From positions 652,501-716,500 of the forward strand of contig JAIGNY010000448.1 of the NCBI GenBank assembly GCA_020152595.1: 64,000 nucleotides of DNA. The letters are read 5' to 3'. The first letter of the stretch is position 1. Every line of letters starts with the position of its first letter. Shown piece after piece: positions 46,001 to 50,035 of the stretch. The position numbers were made by a program, and so were the translations under genes. The notes below the pieces were generated by a model, which saw only the letters and a list, made by a program, of their open reading frames with translations, made no database searches and was not told where the DNA came from. This DNA is from Chiridota heheva. Taxonomy: Eukaryota; Echinodermata; Holothuroidea; Apodida; Chiridotidae.

Positions 46001-48879
46001 AATTAAAAAAAAGCTTAAAGATACATTTTCAATTAGCTTAAAAGGAAATACACAGCTGTCAAAAAGTATTTTGTCTTGACACCAGCTATCAATGAAATCT
46101 AATATCAATTTTGTTTACGAAAGAATATGTGTGAAAATGTGACAACGGTGTCGTTCTACTTTCGATACAAACTGCAGGATGTTTATAAAGCAAAAGCTTG
46201 TTTCTATTAATGATTCGCAAAAAACATGAGCAAGGGGTTATAGTTTCTATATAACTCGATTGAACAAACTTTTCTTTACATTCCTATTTTGATTTTGATT
46301 TGCTGTTTTATAACGCTTGTGTATAGTGCTTATATAACTTCCCTTAAAGGTATATGGACGGGTAGCGATTTTGCCATAAATATGTTCCTTTTAATATTCT
46401 GAACATTTCATTAACATACATCTATCAGAAATTTCCACTCGTTTCTGAGATATTCGCTAAAAAGTAAAAAACTAAGCCCCAAGAAACGGCTGGACTTTTA
46501 AAAAAAACTACTATTAAACCACTATTAAACCCACTATTAAAAAAAGGCGTGTGACGTAAGAATAAGGACACAGCGAAGCCTACAATGCATAACTTACACA
46601 GTGTCACATTGACCTAGGTTATTTTAGAACACCAGTCTCATTGAATCAAACATTAGAAAATCGTTTGATTTACGATATGTTATTTTAGGACATTTTCTCG
46701 TGGATAAAGAGAAAATCCATTATTTCTTTATAATTGGCAAACTCCACTTGTTACGTCAGTACGTTAGACTGTAAGTGTCACTGTATGGTACAGTGTAAGT
46801 TTCACATAACGTTAGTGTTGTACTGTCCTATCCTTATGTTACGAACAAACCAATACGTAATGAGCATACGTTTGGAGACATAAACATAAACACTTTTCAC
46901 ATTTTGGGATCGATTTTGTAAGAAAGTGTTTGTGGTGTGTATTTATGAAGGGCATTTGTATCAATTTATGCAACGTGATTGCTACCTGTCCATATACCTT
47001 TAATTCTTATGTTTTTAACTTACTTTTTGCCTCTGCATATATTTCAGTATTCATATATGACTTTTTTCAATTAATTCAAGCTACATGCAATACATTATCT
47101 AAACATGTATTCAGGTATTACATTCAGTATGCAATTCAGAAAATGACTTGATGTACATAATATTTTGAATGCTTTTTGACAAATTTCTTCCCCATTTTGT
47201 TTCCTTTCAACGTATAGTAATAAAGGAAATTTCTGTTAAAATACTTTTTGTTAAAATAGGTTTTGAATTTTAGAAAAACCTCTTTAAGTTTCTGAATTCT
47301 GGTATGTCAAGAATTGAGGCATTTTGAACATGGCAGATTTTTATGCTAATCTTCTGATGTACATAACTGCACGATCAGCACTAAGATTCATGTATTTCTT
47401 TAAATTCCATTCAAGAATTGTAGCCACTGAAAAAAATGTTTAGAATTGATAAGGGTACTGGAAAGACTACATCCCTTATGATGTAAAGTGCTGTCCTTCG
47501 CAGAAGTAACAGAACCAGTGGCGTAGCAATATTAAGGGATTGGGGGTGAAGGGGAAGGGGGAGGGGTTAAAGAATTGAATTGAACCGACAAGATATTTAG
47601 TGGTGTAGTTGAGGTGACCCAACAGTCGAAGTCCCCGGAAGCTCTCGCAAAATTGACATTTGTCATTATGTCATAACGCATTAAAAATCATTTGAAAGAG
47701 AGCTATGATACACCATATACAAAACACAAAATCAAAGCGCAAAGCGTTCGACTTGTCTGCGTGGAGTACAGGGGTCCCGCTTAAGGGCCCTGGTGGGGTC
47801 CAGGGGCGAAGCCCCAATAGGAGTGCATGGGGCGAAGCCCCCGAAAGCTCTCGCAAAATTGACATTTCAGGGGTAAAAAAGTATGTCACAACGCATATGA
47901 GTAAGAAGGTGTATTATCAGATTATACAAGTCAAAATTCATGTCAAAGAAAGCTATAATACATATACAAAATACAAAATCATGAAAACGCATAATGTGAA
48001 AATATAATGTTTCATTGTTTACGTTTGTACATGGTTAGGTTTATCGTCATTTTTTGAAATATATGGGTTCTCTAAAAGAAAGGTTTTCAATAATTTACTA
48101 CAAACTTGTGTGAATATTGTCAAACTTTTAAAATAAATCTGTTCTGTATCACGTGCCCTCCGACACCGCCTTCCCCCTCCCCCTCTCTTTCGCTCCCCTC
48201 TCTCTCATTCTCTGTGTCTTAGTTCATGTATTTAAATACAAAATCGCACAAATGTTTAATATATTATTACCGAAGAACCTTTTCCAGATAAAGTTCCCTT
48301 TTGAAATCTAAAAACATAATAAGCACCTGGAATGTCAAAGCTTGTTGAACCGACGGGACCAATCTGAACCGACGGATTAAAATCTGAAGCGACGGATTAA
48401 AATCTGAACCGACGGATTAAAATCTGAAGCGAAGGTTTGTGAGCATCGTTTCCCCCCTCCCCTCCCCCCCCCCCCCTCTTTCTCTCTCTTTCTCTGGCTA
48501 CGCCACTGAACAGAACTGAAGTTAAAATATTAAAGGAGCATGCAGCGAAATATGAGCGCGTACTACATATAAAAGTATTGATAACCTTTTATTTGATTGT
48601 TCAAATCAACCTCAATCGTTTTTTTCTCAAATAGAAAAAAAAAAGCAATGGCTTTTTCCATTAAGTTTAACTTTAATATTTCCAACTCAGTCTAAGTTTT
48701 AATTTTGTTGAATATGCACGCAATGTTTAATCTTGTTGAATCTGCACGCATAAGTTGGTTTAGTATGGCCACTAAGGTTAAAAGCTCTTCTAAAAATGTT
48801 TGTGTCACTTACTCTGACTGAAAACGCAAACAACATGGACACTACTCGTAATCAGCAACAGCTGCAGTAAAGACATCAT
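3962..48879 (-). CDS. ITGB: Integrin beta subunit, complete 23-exon gene
   Basis: Type I membrane adhesion receptor chain that pairs with an alpha integrin. Spliced CDS is 2409 bp, 802 aa, close to the usual 770-800 aa. Domain order: signal peptide 1-22, PSI about 29-75, hybrid and beta-I 89-370, hybrid return 371-455, I-EGF1-4 about 452-637, beta-tail 638-718, TM about 729-751, cytoplasmic tail 752-802. Seen directly: MIDAS D140/S142/S144 (DLSNSM), ADMIDAS D147/D148, ligand-site N235, D237, P239, E240 (NADQPEGG), D271 (YTSDAP), DR-EF motif in the juxtamembrane tail, NPLY at 781-784 and NPLF at 793-796. All introns are GT-AG and phases are consistent through to the stop. Orthology to a numbered vertebrate beta chain was not determined. 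No frameshift or stop interrupts the reading, so the gene looks functional. Confidence 0.97.
4040..4844 (-). other. Integrin intron 22
   Basis: 805 bp. Holds a diverged tandem duplication of about 70 bp (4145-4200 and 4215-4271, shared ATGCTCGTTAGATAACA) and a 40-bp near-perfect palindrome at 4432-4471. No coding signal seen. Confidence 0.8.
4432..4471. repeat. 40-bp palindrome with 2-base spacer
   Basis: Arms of 19 bp, starting ACCATGGAGGTACCACTTT and its exact reverse complement, separated by AG. It would extrude as a near loop-less hairpin. The inner part AAAGTGGTACCTCC recurs at 56924-56937. Confidence 0.9.
4845..5020 (-). CDS. ITGB: Integrin beta exon 22: transmembrane helix and juxtamembrane tail
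   Basis: Residues 719-777. ECPPP then the hydrophobic helix at about 729-751 ([20 protein letters not shown] and following), then [21 protein letters not shown]759-R760 and EF are the conserved membrane-proximal residues that clasp the alpha-subunit GFFKR motif; the K-W/F-E-KE-x-x-x-x-x-W segment binds talin and other partners. Acceptor ATTCTTCAG, donor GTAATT, phase 1 in, 0 out. Confidence 0.97.
5141..5298. mobile_element. Short TIR element of the GGCGTA...TACGCC type
   Basis: Ends ATTGGCGTATCCAGG and TGACTACGCCAAT are inverted repeats, with G-rich and C-rich inner segments. Similar ends (CAGTGGCGTA ... TACGCCACTG) occur at 9782-9943 and 47515-48510, so this looks like a small non-autonomous DNA transposon family. 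It encodes nothing. Confidence 0.6.
5879..6005. repeat. (TA)n microsatellite at a splice donor
   Basis: About 127 bp of nearly pure TA with a single AA phase break near 5935. It begins about six bases from the exon 21 donor GT at 6010-6011. Confidence 0.97.
6012..6122 (-). CDS. ITGB: Integrin beta exon 21: beta-tail domain, second half
   Basis: Residues 682-718 plus one base. [19 protein letters not shown] then [11 protein letters not shown]. It fits the family pattern C-x(n)-D-x-C-x-[VF]-x-[FY]-x-Y and the VVYV strand just before the membrane. Acceptor TTTCCTCAG, donor GTAAGA. The intron runs straight into a (TA)n tract. Confidence 0.94.
6799..6945. repeat. 75-bp tandem duplication
   Basis: Two adjacent copies beginning TTTAATTTACCACATCA and both running through GAAACAATCTTTGAACTT to AAATTAGAACAAATAT. 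Mostly identical; the first copy has a short extra CATAA. Recent duplication in an intron. Confidence 0.85.
7257..7462 (+). CDS. Candidate nested exon, cysteine/histidine-rich (unrecognised)
   Basis: Open on the plus strand, opposite to the host gene. A plausible acceptor (CTTTTGACAG) and donor (GTAGGT) bound about 68 codons. The peptide starts with [18 protein letters not shown], a dense C-x3-C-x2-C-x-C-x3-H-x-x-C cluster that could bind zinc, followed by a basic helix-like stretch ([16 protein letters not shown]). I do not recognise the family. No partner exon was found nearby, so it may be a transposon relic or chance. Confidence 0.25.
7681..7706. repeat. 26-bp perfect palindrome
   Basis: ACTGCGTACCAAC joined without spacer to its exact reverse complement. 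A third half-copy, TTGGTACGCAGTGG, follows at 7716-7729, so the sequence is effectively a three-arm repeat. Confidence 0.95.
8886..9018 (-). CDS. ITGB: Integrin beta exon 20: beta-tail domain, first half
   Basis: Residues 638-681 plus one base. [20 protein letters not shown] then [12 protein letters not shown], matching the beta-tail pattern C-x(5)-C-x-x-C-x-x-[FY]. Acceptor TTCATATAG, donor GTGAGT, phase 0 in, 1 out. Confidence 0.94.
9019..10603 (-). other. Integrin intron 19
   Basis: 1585 bp. Holds a CAGTGGCGTA-type TIR fragment (9782-9943) and a stretch rich in CAACGTTGG words (9290-9460). No supported gene. Confidence 0.75.
9782..9943. mobile_element. Short TIR element, CAGTGGCGTA family
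   Basis: Starts GCAGTGGCGTAATTAAGG and ends CTAGCTACGCAACTG. It is G-rich at one side and C-rich at the other, non-coding, and similar to elements at 5141 and 47515. Confidence 0.55.
10604..10696 (-). CDS. ITGB: Integrin beta exon 19: I-EGF4
   Basis: Residues 607-637. [18 protein letters not shown] then [10 protein letters not shown], the fourth integrin EGF module ending at the C-x-x-C link into the beta-tail. The first Gly-rich GxG turn is NAIG here. Acceptor ATATCACAG, donor GTAAGT, phases 0/0. Confidence 0.95.
10697..11944 (-). other. Integrin intron 18
   Basis: 1248 bp. Contains a repeat of the GAGCAAAATTTCC type (about 11330-11740), built of short TTCC/GGAAATTT sub-repeats and flanked by C-rich segments. 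It resembles 35700-36030 and 54380-55160. Confidence 0.65.
11330..11740. repeat. Dispersed repeat with GAGCAAAATTTCC sub-repeats
   Basis: Short recurring words (CCCCAAAATGAGCAAAATTT, repeated) end in a purine/pyrimidine-rich tail with many GGGGGA and CCCCTCCC runs. Similar composition and words are seen at 35700-36030 and 54380-55160. Probably a non-autonomous mobile element; ends not resolved. Confidence 0.45.
11945..12072 (-). CDS. ITGB: Integrin beta exon 18: I-EGF3
   Basis: Residues 564-606. [18 protein letters not shown], then [11 protein letters not shown] and [11 protein letters not shown]. The CGC-x-T-R-x-D-TC-x-[AS]-x-x-G ending is diagnostic of I-EGF3/4. Between the second and third core cysteines an eight-residue segment replaces the usual CG-x-C spacing, so the module is atypical. 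Acceptor CTATTAAAG, donor GTAAGT, phase 1 in, 0 out. Confidence 0.94.
12609..13146. mobile_element. TIR element, family D, deletion derivative
   Basis: Begins GCTGCCGATAAAAGTAAAT and ends TTTACTATCACACCGG (inverted). It shares long segments with 62381-63168, e.g. CATAGGCCCTAA, CTATTTCTCCCATGAGC, TTGTTGGGAGTTTTGACTA and CAGTCCGGAGGG. The internal coding segment of the 62-kb copy is missing here between about 12876 and 12880. Confidence 0.65.
14128..14249. mobile_element. Nested 122-bp element with 15-bp TIRs
   Basis: TTATTCGCAGGGCAG at the left and its exact inverse CTGCCCTGCGAATAA at the right. The left end also forms an internal palindrome GCAGGGCAGCCCTGC. The centre holds TTAGGGTTGGGGGTTAGG, a degenerate telomere-like run. 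Confidence 0.7.
14414..14548 (-). CDS. Candidate first coding exon inside a TIR element (unrecognised)
   Basis: Starts ATG at 14548 and stays open for 45 codons to a consensus donor GTAAGT. The peptide ([20 protein letters not shown] then [20 protein letters not shown]) has balanced, protein-like composition unlike chance frames here. It lies between the long inverted repeats at 13720-14706 and on the same strand as the integrin gene. No following exon was identified. It could be a relic of a transposon gene or a captured host exon. Confidence 0.35.
15657..15878 (-). pseudogene. Orphan ORF fragment, 73 codons
   Basis: Minus-strand frame preceded by a possible acceptor (AATATTAG) and closed by a stop. 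The peptide has complex composition ([47 protein letters not shown]). Not recognised and not part of the integrin. Most likely a terminal exon or fragment of a degraded or transposed gene. Confidence 0.25.
16339..16420 (-). CDS. ITGB: Integrin beta exon 17: I-EGF2 end and I-EGF3 start
   Basis: Residues 537-563 plus one base. [20 protein letters not shown] then CG, matching I-x-GK-x-CEC-[DN]-[DN]-F-x-C-x-R-x-x-G-x-x-C. Acceptor ATAATTAG, donor GTAAGA, phase 0 in, 1 out. Confidence 0.96.
16421..17250 (-). other. Integrin intron 16
   Basis: 830 bp of AT-rich sequence. Nothing beyond short C-rich and CA runs near 17060-17085. Confidence 0.75.
17251..17323 (-). CDS. ITGB: Integrin beta exon 16: I-EGF2 start
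   Basis: Residues 512-536. [18 protein letters not shown] matches the I-EGF2 core C-SGRG-x-C-x-CG-x-C-x-C. Acceptor TTTCCAG, donor GTACGT, phase 2 in, 0 out. Confidence 0.96.
17324..19000 (-). other. Integrin intron 15 with giant (TA)n tract
   Basis: 1677 bp, one third of which is the (TA)n tract. Also poly-T at 17401-17431 and a C run near 17498-17510. No supported exon. Confidence 0.8.
17767..18305. repeat. (TA)n microsatellite, about 540 bp
   Basis: Almost pure TA for about 540 bp, with rare interruptions (TACATA at several points, AAATA near 17948, TGTACA near 18125). The open frames seen in it are artefacts of the dinucleotide period. Confidence 0.98.
19001..19152 (-). CDS. ITGB: Integrin beta exon 15: I-EGF1
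   Basis: Residues 462-511 plus two bases. Contains [19 protein letters not shown] and RFGQSCECS, a textbook integrin EGF signature (C-x(n)-GNG-x-x-x-CG-x-C-x-C-x-x-G-x-x-G-x-x-C-x-C). Acceptor TTGCACAG, donor GTAGGT, phase 0 in, 2 out. Confidence 0.97.
19153..20740 (-). other. Integrin intron 14
   Basis: 1588 bp, AT-rich. I see no repeat family or exon that I can support. Confidence 0.7.
20741..20825 (-). CDS. ITGB: Integrin beta exon 14: hybrid end and I-EGF1 start
   Basis: Residues 433-461. [20 protein letters not shown] then SCGCENNG, matching F-x-I-[RK]-P-[LIV]-G at the end of the hybrid domain and the C-x-C-x-C onset of I-EGF1. Acceptor TTTATAG, donor GTAAGT, phase 2 in, 0 out. Confidence 0.95.
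20826..22238 (-). other. Integrin intron 13
   Basis: 1413 bp, AT-rich. No repeat family or exon recognised. Confidence 0.7.
22239..22426 (-). CDS. ITGB: Integrin beta exon 13: hybrid domain return
   Basis: Residues 371-432 plus two bases. Contains [23 protein letters not shown] and KAVGCLEG. It fits the family layout of hybrid-domain cysteines after the beta-I domain (x-C-x(n)-C-x-x-[IL]-x-[IL]-G-x-x-V-x-F-x-[IV]). Acceptor GTGCATAG, donor GTATGT, phase 0 in, 2 out. It is the largest coding exon at 188 bp. Confidence 0.95.
22510..23340. repeat. Diverged tandem block (period about 310 bp) rich in TGACCTTTGACC
   Basis: Segments such as GGGACACAAATTCAT ... GGTATAGGTCTTG recur at 22789-22846 and 23096-23153, giving a period near 307 bp; CATAATTACCC occurs at 22553 and 22892. 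The block contains perfect direct repeats TGACCTTTGACCT at 22918-22930 and 23211-23223 and overlapping imperfect ones near 23315-23334. These match the AGGTCA-n-AGGTCA (DR1) site of RXR/HNF4-type nuclear receptors. Function is not shown. Confidence 0.75.
24450..24775 (+). mobile_element. LINE 3' end fragment
   Basis: About 320 bp homologous to 44085-44420, sharing GTGATGC, TTGACTTCCTGT, CATGTGACACGTGG, ATATTCGGCGTT, CTAGCCCTTCTTA and TTAGCCCG. That copy still translates as the C terminus of a non-LTR retrotransposon reverse-transcriptase ORF. This copy is frameshifted and non-coding. Confidence 0.65.
24869..25146 (-). mobile_element. tRNA-derived SINE, copy 1
   Basis: On the minus strand it starts with a tRNA-like head: A-box-like TGGTGTAACAG and B box GGGTTCAAGCCTGGG, then a body shared with 41220-41412 and 53696-53970 (CTCGTCCAGGTCGTATTAAG and others). 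Apparently full length at the head. Confidence 0.8.
25423..26040. mobile_element. TIR element, family C, copy 1
   Basis: Ends CAGTCCGGAGGCATGCCT and AGGCATGCTACCGGACTGT are inverted repeats. The interior shares long segments with 34363-35118 in inverse orientation (CATATTGTTCAGATGTTGCG, CTAGCTCTATCGTCTATT). Non-coding MITE-like element. Confidence 0.75.
26080..26169 (-). CDS. ITGB: Integrin beta exon 12: end of beta-I domain
   Basis: Residues 341-370. [20 protein letters not shown] then [10 protein letters not shown], matching the C-terminal helix region with the DSSN-[VI]-x-x-[LI]-[IV] motif whose displacement transmits activation to the hybrid domain. Acceptor TTTTGTAG, donor GTAGGT, phases 0/0. 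Confidence 0.95.
26688..26770 (+). repeat. tRNA-like SINE head or tRNA pseudogene
   Basis: TTAGCCCAGTAGGTTGGCG resembles a pol III A box / D arm, and GAGTTCGAGCCCCGG a B box / T arm, 40 bp apart. The middle has an oligo-T insertion and no convincing anticodon stem, so it is not called a functional tRNA gene. Confidence 0.5.
27255..27765. mobile_element. TIR element, family B, copy 1
   Basis: Starts CAATCCGGTCCACGCTCC and closes in repeated CTCCCGATTGGGAGAT words (27700-27765). The interior (CATGCGCAGT, CTGTTATTTTAAAGTTATA, GTTGCACCAATAAAAT) matches 30885-31262 in inverse orientation. Confidence 0.65.
27815..28402. mobile_element. TIR element, family A, copy 1
   Basis: Ends GTCCGGTTCGTACCCC and GGTACAAACCGAACTG are inverted. 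It matches 28799-29382 over its length (ACACATTTCGAGCGCGGGGA, CACCGTGCGCTTTTAAAATT). No ORF of note. Confidence 0.8.
28799..29382. mobile_element. TIR element, family A, copy 2
   Basis: Same orientation as the copy at 27815 and about 400 bp away. Ends GTCCGGTTCGTACCCC and GGTACGAACCGAAC. Diverged by scattered substitutions and small indels. Confidence 0.8.
29497..29592 (-). CDS. ITGB: Integrin beta exon 11: beta-I domain
   Basis: Residues 309-340. [20 protein letters not shown] then [12 protein letters not shown], matching DYPS-x-x-x-L-x-x-K-x-x-x-NNI-x-PIFAV. Acceptor GTCATCAG, donor GTTTGC (weak consensus), phases 0/0. Confidence 0.95.
29593..30625 (-). other. Integrin intron 10
   Basis: 1033 bp. 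Contains a tandem repeat of about 33 bp with the word TACTGCAGGTATCAAAAAT (29858-30040). Confidence 0.8.
29858..30040. repeat. Tandem repeat, about 33 bp, about 6 copies
   Basis: Units built on TACTGCAGGTATCAAAAAT, e.g. at 29883, 29914, 29945, 29977 and 30008, with drift to CTGCTGGTCTC and CTGCAGTTACC. The open frame through it is only a repeat artefact. Confidence 0.8.
30626..30706 (-). CDS. ITGB: Integrin beta exon 10: beta-I domain
   Basis: Residues 282-308. [15 protein letters not shown] followed by YETSNLY, matching the conserved GGI-x-x-PN-x-G-x-C-x-L strand. Acceptor ACCCACAG, donor GTAAGT, phases 0/0. Confidence 0.96.
30707..31845 (-). other. Integrin intron 9
   Basis: 1139 bp. Holds family B copy 2 (30885-31262). 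The remainder is AT-rich and unremarkable. Confidence 0.75.
30885..31262. mobile_element. TIR element, family B, copy 2 (inverted)
   Basis: Starts CAGTCCGGTTTACGCTCCCG and ends CATGTGTCGATATTTAC...AACTGG. The interior is the inverse of 27255-27600. Two CTCCC...GGGAG hairpin words stand at the left end. Confidence 0.65.
31846..31929 (-). CDS. ITGB: Integrin beta exon 9: beta-I domain
   Basis: Residues 254-281. [20 protein letters not shown] then FHIAGDGT, matching the family pattern IGWR-x(4)-LLV-x-T-x-D-x-x-x-H-x-A-x-DG. D271 is the distal MIDAS-associated aspartate. Acceptor ATCTTGCAG, donor GTAAGT, phases 0/0. Confidence 0.97.
31930..33284 (-). other. Integrin intron 8
   Basis: 1355 bp. 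Contains an 18-bp tandem repeat at 32136-32216, otherwise AT-rich sequence without exons. Confidence 0.75.
32136..32216. repeat. 18-bp tandem repeat, about 4.5 copies
   Basis: Unit GTTCCAATGTATCCAAAT drifting to GTTCCATTGTGTCCAAAT. In frame on the minus strand it would read as a six-residue repeat, but there is no sign that it is coding. Confidence 0.85.
33285..33371 (-). CDS. ITGB: Integrin beta exon 8: ligand-associated metal site
   Basis: Residues 225-253. Contains [21 protein letters not shown]235, D237, P239 and E240 are the conserved synergistic metal site ligands, and E240 also completes the MIDAS. Acceptor TATTTCTAG, donor GTTGGT (non-consensus but GT), phases 0/0. Confidence 0.96.
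33372..33704 (-). other. Integrin intron 7
   Basis: 333 bp, the shortest intron of the gene. No repeat or other feature seen. Confidence 0.8.
33705..33801 (-). CDS. ITGB: Integrin beta exon 7: specificity-determining loop
   Basis: Residues 192-224. Contains [18 protein letters not shown]. This is the position of the specificity-determining loop that contacts the alpha subunit and ligand. The two loop cysteines (C201, C204) are only two residues apart, whereas vertebrate beta1/beta3 space them by five or six. The YSFRNVLPL strand is conserved. Acceptor ATTTTCAG, donor GTAAGA, phase 2 in, 0 out. Confidence 0.95.
34363..35118. mobile_element. TIR element, family C, copy 2 (inverted)
   Basis: Ends ACCGGCAGTATGCCTAATAA and AATAGGCATGCTTCCGGACTG; the interior is the inverse of 25423-26040. 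It is longer than copy 1 and includes a hairpin at 34546-34588 not seen in that copy. Confidence 0.75.
34546..34588. repeat. 17-bp inverted repeat, 9-bp spacer
   Basis: AAATCAGACCCGACCTG and CAGGTCGGGTCAGATTT, one mismatch, followed by a T-rich run. It looks like a stem-loop plus T tract; in this eukaryotic intron I do not call it a terminator. Confidence 0.85.
35700..36030. repeat. Dispersed repeat with TTTTCGGAAAATTTT sub-repeats
   Basis: Short words TTCAATTTTCGGAAAATTTT, TTTTTGGAAAATGTTGC and similar repeat every 20-25 bp, preceded by a GC-rich segment. Resembles 11330-11740 and 54380-55160. Confidence 0.45.
36043..36117 (+). repeat. tRNA-like SINE head
   Basis: Acceptor-stem-like ends GCAGACC and GGTCTAC pair 6 of 7; CGTAGCAGTGAGGC resembles an A box and GGCTTCGATTCCCAG a B box. 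T-stem pairing is poor, so this is taken as a SINE or tRNA pseudogene, not a functional tRNA. Confidence 0.5.
36962..38350. repeat. 24-bp minisatellite, about 1.4 kb
   Basis: Core unit ATGTCCCACATGGCATCCCA plus CCCC, homogenised in 37045-37320 and more diverged toward 38350. Because 24 is a multiple of three, all frames stay open and give repeat peptides ([24 protein letters not shown]). A non-repeat spacer TAAGAAGTCTCATCC recurs at 38090 and 38360. No coding evidence. Confidence 0.92.
38870..39050. repeat. Degenerate tandem repeat with AACTTTAACATTT
   Basis: About five units of 30-40 bp (GGAACTCTGAAGAAACTTTA, ACATTTTCTGAGGAA) end in GGACGGCCGGACGGCTGGAC. Degenerate and non-coding. Confidence 0.7.
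39540..39636 (-). CDS. ITGB: Integrin beta exon 6: beta-I domain
   Basis: Residues 160-191. Contains [21 protein letters not shown] and [10 protein letters not shown], the highly conserved beta-I segment with the FVDK aspartate (D179) of the ligand-associated metal site. Acceptor TTTGCAG, donor GTAAGT, phase 1 in, 2 out. Confidence 0.97.
39637..40736 (-). other. Integrin intron 5
   Basis: 1100 bp, AT-rich. No repeat family or extra exon recognised. Confidence 0.7.
40737..40868 (-). CDS. ITGB: Integrin beta exon 5: beta-I domain with MIDAS
   Basis: Residues 116-159. Contains [21 protein letters not shown]140, S142 and S144 are the MIDAS DxSxS residues and D147/D148 the ADMIDAS pair. These chelate the metal ions that bind the ligand carboxylate. 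The usual Tyr/Ala in the DLSxSM slot is Asn here. Acceptor CTTTACAG, donor GTAAGA, phase 1 in and 1 out. Confidence 0.97.
41220..41412 (-). mobile_element. tRNA-derived SINE, copy 2 (head-truncated)
   Basis: Matches the body and tail of copies at 24869 and 53696 but stops at GGTGCACTGGCG, so the tRNA-like promoter head is absent, as expected for 5' truncation in reverse transcription. Confidence 0.8.
41686..43442. mobile_element. TIR DNA element, 1.76 kb, TA target site
   Basis: Left end GGGAGACCGAGGCTGGTTGG and right end (inverse) GGGGAGACCGGGGCTGGTTG, each continuing GCACA and each flanked by TA. An internal inverted repeat GGTTGGTTGGCACAC / GTGTGCCAACCAACC lies at about 42050-42100, and a 35-bp tandem repeat (GACTGAGGGGTGAGTC) at 42378-42490. 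No transposase frame recognised; probably non-autonomous and composite. Confidence 0.8.
43450..43531 (-). CDS. ITGB: Integrin beta exon 4: hybrid domain entry
   Basis: Residues 89-115 plus one base. Contains [15 protein letters not shown], the conserved hybrid-domain strand that leads into the beta-I domain (compare the family pattern Q-x-QPQ-x-x-L-x-L-R). Acceptor TAATTTAG, donor GTAAGT. A 1.76-kb TIR element begins immediately after the donor, with its TA target duplicate overlapping donor position +6. Confidence 0.95.
43532..44421 (-). other. Integrin intron 3 with LINE tail at the donor
   Basis: 890 bp. Its donor-proximal third is a LINE 3' fragment lying on the opposite strand; the rest is unremarkable. 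Confidence 0.8.
44085..44420 (+). mobile_element. LINE (non-LTR retrotransposon) 3' end
   Basis: Plus-strand frame 44121-44309 ends with [17 protein letters not shown] and FKVNNDKFF. This is the typical C terminus of reverse-transcriptase ORFs of many non-LTR elements (FSxRVVxxWNxLP then a F-K-x-x-x-D-x-x pattern). It is followed by about 100 bp of 3' UTR and a TGTTATGTTATG tail. 5'-truncated, related to 24450-24775. Confidence 0.75.
44422..44526 (-). CDS. ITGB: Integrin beta exon 3: PSI domain, second half
   Basis: Residues 54-88. The [13 protein letters not shown] segment matches the integrin PSI pattern RC-x(n)-L-x-x-x-GC, followed by [10 protein letters not shown]. In phase 0, out phase 0. 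The donor reads GTAATA and the intron continues directly into the 3' tail of a LINE fragment. Confidence 0.95.
44527..45888 (-). other. Integrin intron 2
   Basis: 1362 bp, AT-rich. Nothing identified. Confidence 0.7.
45889..45980 (-). CDS. ITGB: Integrin beta exon 2: PSI domain, first half
   Basis: Residues 23-53, including [18 protein letters not shown], the canonical cysteine-knot core of the plexin-semaphorin-integrin domain at the N terminus of beta integrins. Acceptor TTTGTTTAG, donor GTACGT, phase 1 in and 0 out. The PSI domain supports the head and its first cysteine normally bonds to the I-EGF region in bent integrins. Confidence 0.95.
47515..48510. mobile_element. TIR element, CAGTGGCGTAGC ends
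   Basis: Starts CCAGTGGCGTAGCAAT and ends GGCTACGCCACTG, with a GGGG-rich left and CCCC-rich right flank. Internally AGCTCTCGCAAAATTGACAT occurs twice (47640 and 47846), and a 23-bp tandem (ATCTGAACCGACGGATTAAA) lies at 48353-48436. No transposase recognised. Confidence 0.7.
48353..48436. repeat. 23-bp tandem repeat, about 4 copies
   Basis: Unit AATCTGAACCGACGGATTAA, alternating GAACC and GAAGC. Inside the TIR element at 47515-48510. Confidence 0.85.
48813..48879 (-). CDS. ITGB: Integrin beta exon 1: start codon and signal peptide
   Basis: Encodes residues 1-22, [10 protein letters not shown] followed by [12 protein letters not shown], a hydrophobic signal peptide. The donor is GTAAGT, leaving one base of codon 23 (phase 1). 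Two ATGs are adjacent; the first is taken as start. Just upstream on the minus strand lies TTTTCTTGCAG, a good acceptor, so a non-coding 5' exon may be spliced here. The 5' two thirds of this exon and its acceptor are homologous to the unit of the adjoining minisatellite. Start choice is fairly sure because the next exon joins in phase and continues into the PSI domain. Confidence 0.85.

Positions 48880-50035: not shown

Follow-up and report, generated by a model that had tools for sequence, protein, structure and literature searches.

A minisatellite resembling lancelet mirages at the first coding exon of an integrin beta gene in Chiridota heheva

The boundary of the first coding exon of an integrin beta gene, with its own splice site and start codon, is copied about 18 times upstream of that exon in the 64,000-nucleotide window of C. 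heheva that we analysed. The array appears to belong to a rare but already described class of minisatellites whose units duplicate the junction between an intron and an exon.

Structure and origin of the array

Nineteen units of about 64 bp make up the minisatellite, which is oriented along the minus strand and spans 50010 to 48851. It adjoins the first coding exon on its upstream side, as the earlier note had described, and the downstream gene is a genuine integrin beta gene. The overlap between unit and exon proposed in that note was also confirmed: the final unit is formed by the 3' splice site together with the opening 30 nt of the exon that encodes the signal peptide. Searches of the animal's own 1.1-Gb genome placed the unit at a single locus, and therefore in-situ duplication of the gene's own intron-exon boundary is the best origin for the array. 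A paralogue that lacks the array, and whose first exon is a candidate only, agrees with this origin. Tandem repeats made up 6.3% of the 144 kb sampled.

Signals retained and their possible effect

The CAG acceptor was retained in 14 of the 18 upstream units and the ATG in 16, and the decoy units had splice-acceptor scores similar to that of the real acceptor. Conservation of this acceptor/ATG core was borderline when base composition was controlled (p 0.051). An 11-codon open reading frame was present in only 9/18 upstream units, and not in nearly all of them, as the earlier note had stated for the outer units. In unit 18, the nearest decoy, the frame opened by the ATG at 48936 meets no stop and continues into the genuine signal peptide, with which it is in phase. 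In principle, the array could put a ladder of decoy splice sites and upstream start codons into the message. We favour the reading that it is a largely neutral mirage. The structure matches that of the lancelet "mirages", which have been suggested not to disturb splicing, and the array in C. heheva is probably harmless.

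The array and the integrin beta gene beside it

On the minus strand of the window, TRF called a tandem repeat at 48851-49958 (period 64, 17.8 copies), with a score of 1072 that rules out a chance repeat. Wraparound alignment carried the array to 50010, for a minisatellite at 48851..50010 with 19 units, each ~64 bp long and one of them overlapping exon 1 (total score 1492). We numbered the units from 1, the outermost, to 19, on the gene side, and refer to units 1-18 as the upstream units. The consensus unit is ACTGTGAATACCTTTCTTGTATCTTTTCTTGCAG then CATGA(A/T)GTCTTTACTGCAGCTGTTACTGAT; units 1 and 6 are short (40 and 43 nt, respectively, in the wraparound alignment). 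The earlier note had described about 19 units of about 64 bp by the first coding exon, and the TRF score and the 19 aligned units confirm it. The extent it gave, 48813..50035, was too wide, as the array proper covers 48851-50010 and the exon part at 48813-48850 is not repeated. The units were also considered as mini-exons, a reading that we rejected: their donor-like ACT/GTGAAT lacks the G at +5 and -1 of the donor consensus (by eye, one site considered).

Unit 19 (48851..48914, minus strand) carries the presumed genuine 3' splice site, with 34 columns upstream of the exon, and the first 30 nt of exon 1. Read from 48914 to 48851, it is identical to the consensus at 59 of 64 positions and holds the acceptor TTTTCTTGCAG and the exon 1 start, ATGATGTCTTTACTGCAGCTG. 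Homology to the array is lost abruptly at 48851, within the exon; from 48850 to 48813 the exon gave no array match above shuffle (best score 14; shuffle 95% point 22). At its outer end, the array starts close to that unit column. Just beyond unit 1 (49971..50010, minus strand) lies ACTGTGAATA, as in the first columns of the unit; these ten bases match the unit start, a match that is within the shuffle range when taken alone. The two breaks of the array seem to fall in the same unit column, a pattern that in-place duplication of a single segment would produce.

The host gene of the array is a genuine integrin beta gene. Exon 1 (48813..48880, minus strand, the 5' edge assuming use of the acceptor) begins with the ATG at 48879, encodes 22 residues, among them a signal peptide called on hydrophobicity only, and ends at a phase-1 donor, AGA/GTAAGT. 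Exon 2 (45889..45980, minus strand, 3' end counted by eye) follows a phase-1 acceptor, TTTGTTTAG/AT, is in phase with the exon 1 donor and has a match to the integrin PSI domain (PF17205). Further exons match PF00362. The beta-I (Integrin_beta) domain at 40723..40833 on the minus strand (693223-693333 of C443, the handle of the window's own contig) corresponds to PF00362 positions 1-37; its PDB match is to integrin beta-1 chains, over a 55-residue stretch (E 2.6e-11). When ATG-started hydrophobic readings ending at a donor were scanned for in 46010-52000, only one donor was recovered in any phase, that of exon 1 (phase 1), and phases 0 and 2 gave no such reading. Given the overlap of unit 19 with exon 1 and the PF00362, PF17205 and PDB matches, the earlier description of the unit as a repeat of the acceptor and start codon of an integrin beta gene stands.

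Other repeats were seen in the window. Within the integrin gene, ~24-bp units (CCCACATGGCATCCCACC-like) form a large array at 36970-38350, and similar units were noted by eye on the opposite strand in the paralogue locus L022. A 92-bp tandem duplication at 60282-60466 (2.0 copies, 100% match) is either very recent or an assembly artefact, and a 540-bp (TA)n microsatellite occupies 17767-18306.

Origin of the array

The genome DNA (1.1 Gb) was searched with very common words skipped and only the best candidates scored. Under these settings, the array gave one match, at its own locus, and a two-unit consensus gave 12 matches, all inside the array. The exon-1 peptide matched the genome at the window locus only. 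A dispersed satellite or a transposon-borne repeat was rejected because the unit was not found at other loci in these searches (12/12 matches in the array). The earlier note had held that a unit occurring elsewhere without integrin linkage would mark the array as an unrelated satellite, and within this species' own genome no such copy was found.

We consider it reasonably probable that the array arose by duplication of the exon 1 boundary in place, with a functional gene-side copy and other copies largely without effect. A 64-bp segment across the intron/exon-1 boundary would have been tandemly duplicated in situ; its 34 bp of intron hold the pyrimidine tract and acceptor, and its 30 exonic bp hold the start codon together with some of the signal-peptide codons. 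This segment would have expanded upstream to 19 copies and formed a mirage, that is, a minisatellite of the lancelet type that repeats an intron-exon boundary. The gene-side copy would have kept working as acceptor and start, whereas the remaining 18 copies would lie in a 5' UTR intron or in the 5' flank, most probably spliced out or untranscribed and of little effect. We infer each of the gene-first origin, the 5' UTR intron and the neutrality of the upstream copies.

The order may have been the reverse, with a minisatellite of the flank arising first and its edge unit later being recruited as the acceptor and start of exon 1. The exon unit does nest within the diversity of the array. In a tree of the units (64 columns, weak evidence), it is not the outgroup and groups with unit 4 (distance 0.078), a closeness that leaves room for earlier exchange between the exon and the array. 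Nevertheless, we regard a satellite-first origin as quite unlikely. One locus was found in the genome, the signal-peptide exon runs on past the repeat as far as a donor whose phase fits the PSI exon, and a random repeat that happened to hold an acceptor, an ATG and a hydrophobic run seems less parsimonious.

The window gene has an integrin beta paralogue ~85 kb away on the same contig and in the same orientation (loci L037-L038, 782106-786935; PSI exon at C443:782106). Its candidate signal-peptide exon (786935-786866) has 23 codons, is in phase 1 like exon 1 of the window gene, and was the sole candidate in 782107-800000 with all phases scanned. Within ~800 bp of this candidate there is a short hexamer repeat and no tandem array of period at least 15. 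The acceptor-like sites preceding the paralogue ATG scored 2.2 and 4.8 (74th and 91st percentile). At the paralogue PSI exon, with phases judged by eye, the acceptor that fits the phase of the candidate donor scored 2.0, and the better one, at 5.1, does not fit it. An array-free paralogue with a candidate exon 1 agrees weakly with the gene-first origin, weakly because its splice sites score low and the better PSI acceptor is out of phase. The same facts can be counted for the satellite-first order, as the paralogue exon 1, for all its similar layout, has weak splice sites and the status of a candidate only. Further integrin beta exons were seen on two other contigs, C1149 and C3621, and one further match lies at C443:612201-612335. 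In the C1149 and C3621 paralogues, a phase-1 signal-peptide scan gave no convincing exon 1.

The paralogue, with no strong acceptor before its ATG, also bears on whether the window gene has a 5' UTR intron. If it had none, transcription would start between the array and exon 1 or inside the array, and the repeats would be promoter or flank DNA, an arrangement not exclusive of the in-situ duplication origin. The window gene, however, has a strong acceptor directly 5' of its ATG. Under an approximate 3' splice-site profile, this acceptor scored 10.1, the 99.4th percentile of 3223 AGs outside the array, and we think the absence of the intron rather unlikely.

Decoy acceptors and reading frames in the upstream units

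We refer to the upstream-unit copies of the acceptor and ATG as decoys. CAG is kept in 14 of the 18 upstream units, ATG in 16 and both in 13. Scored with the same approximate profile, seven of the 14 CAG-bearing units equalled or exceeded the genuine acceptor (10.1, to one decimal); twelve fell at 8.8-12.1 and the other two at 7.3 and 5.1. In sequence terms, the decoy-acceptor potential raised earlier is real. Because several decoys reach the score of the genuine acceptor and precede it in the transcript direction, their neutrality for splicing is not obvious. An 11-codon ORF ending in TGA was found in nine of the 18 upstream units (3, 5, 7, 8, 9 and 13-16), so that the earlier statement that nearly all outer units reach TGA after about 11 codons was overstated. 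Units 2, 4, 10 and 17 stop after 3-8 codons (7 codons in unit 10), units 1 and 12 have ORFs of 40 and 43 codons, respectively, and units 6 and 11 are without ATG.

These features would suit a ladder of decoys, in which partial use of upstream acceptors lengthens the 5' UTR in ~64-nt steps, mostly by adding short uORFs, and the array length tunes integrin output. Use of the acceptor at 49064 would bring 4 uORFs and use of that at 49994 would bring 29, in either case with one in-frame start besides. In addition to the number and scores of the retained acceptors, the ATG of 13 of the 14 CAG-bearing upstream units has A at -3 in its genomic context. A C. elegans survey found one minisatellite over-represented near alternatively spliced regions and tied it to regions of multiple alternative splicing (PMC4039745), which keeps a regulatory reading of the array open. 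The lancelet precedents point the other way. In the globin paper, Adh3 data and globin RT-PCR suggest that mirages leave regular splicing undisturbed, although their repeated splice signals could serve as cryptic sites (PMC3087553). A second paper states that the mirages of Adh and troponin C give rise to no aberrant mRNAs and suggests the same for PGBD5 (PMC3902484).

We compared the variability of the unit columns. In the 16 long upstream units, the raw departure from the consensus was 6% for both the pyrimidine tract and YAG and 2% for ATG. It came to 11-15% in the codon columns that follow, 16% over columns 1-12 and 20% over columns 57-64. The lower raw variability in the first three could hint at constraint. 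In a base-controlled test without the exon unit, the two short units and four polymorphic columns, the acceptor/ATG core departed at 6.3% vs. 9.8% elsewhere; the permutation p of 0.051 is generous because the units share descent, and no single base was significant. Such borderline conservation is no clear evidence that the decoys are maintained, nor is it evidence that they are not. The mean pairwise difference between units was 0.176 and stayed flat (0.164-0.188) over separations of 1-8, so the array is probably an old drifting repeat and not a freshly homogenised one. A mirage would be expected to evolve in concert inside the cluster and to have diverged edge units. Here units 2, 17 and 18 show rather high divergence, as does unit 12, whereas the exon unit does not. 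With the core signal this weak and the lancelet mirages with intact splice signals suggested not to disturb mRNA, we take the ladder to be unlikely, and on present evidence a decoy-ladder function is less likely than a neutral repeat.

Unit 18 (48915..48971, minus strand) could provide an alternative start. Its decoy acceptor (first exon base 48937) scored 8.9, and its ATG at 48936 is in frame with the main ATG because the unit is 57 bp long. The ORF is open through exon 1 into the main ORF, and use of this acceptor would give a protein with a 19-residue N-terminal extension and an altered signal peptide. An in-frame reading is, however, a one-in-three accident, and unit 18 is decayed (50/57 to the consensus, with several small deletions); we therefore find such a second start highly improbable. 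The array could also be a length-variable regulator, in which a co-transcriptional choice among the ~14 upstream acceptors, most of them nearly equal to the genuine one, sets the number of short signal-peptide-like uORFs ahead of the start codon, copy number tunes the receptor, and unit 18 gives a second signal-peptide form. We regard this combined function as very unlikely.

Relation to lancelet mirages and meaning of the array

The lancelet globin mirages are described as minisatellite-like duplications of intron-exon boundaries (PMC3087553). The integrin beta array resembles them in that its tandem units span the intron/exon boundary of a real gene, as predicted from its sequence, and in that many but not all units keep their splice signals (CAG in 14 of the 18 upstream units). 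The same paper gives the BflGb6 mirage units as 150-160 bp long and 81-100% identical, with 6 and 3 units in two haplotypes, whereas the unit here is 64 bp in 19 copies. The duplicated splice sites adjoin the true site, as in lancelet Adh3, troponin C and PGBD5 (PMC3902484). Those cases concern other genes, and their units measure 10-72 bp in Adh3 (PMC3087553) and 60 and 108 bp in PGBD5 (PMC3902484). Unlike the lancelet globin mirages, the Chiridota unit takes in the start codon and some of the signal peptide. Its position at the start codon is unusual. The lancelet Adh3 repeat is also said to show somatic length instability. In a partial literature search, no boundary-spanning minisatellite was recognised outside lancelets, and the array is possibly the first mirage outside that group. 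The assembly gave no match to COX1 and none to mollusc haemocyanin, although in the haemocyanin search the control was silent too.

Tandem arrays of period at least 15 and length at least 60 cover 6.3% of a 144-kb sample (the window plus eight 10-kb stretches, with the array itself excluded). At this cover, an array spanning an exon boundary is not improbable in the Chiridota genome; a gene with ~30 exon edges, a guessed number, would meet one or two arrays by blind chance. On the other hand, among the Pfam-matched exon stretches of 17 partly overlapping paralogue loci, no array of period at least 15 overlaps a matched stretch.

The array may extend mirages beyond lancelets. It is also a natural test of 3' splice-site choice, with many near-identical acceptor and start-codon modules lined up ahead of a single coding exon. 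If the last acceptor is always picked, something beyond the local splice-site sequence must enforce the choice, such as exon definition from the donor downstream. If it is not always picked, the copy number is a dial on expression.
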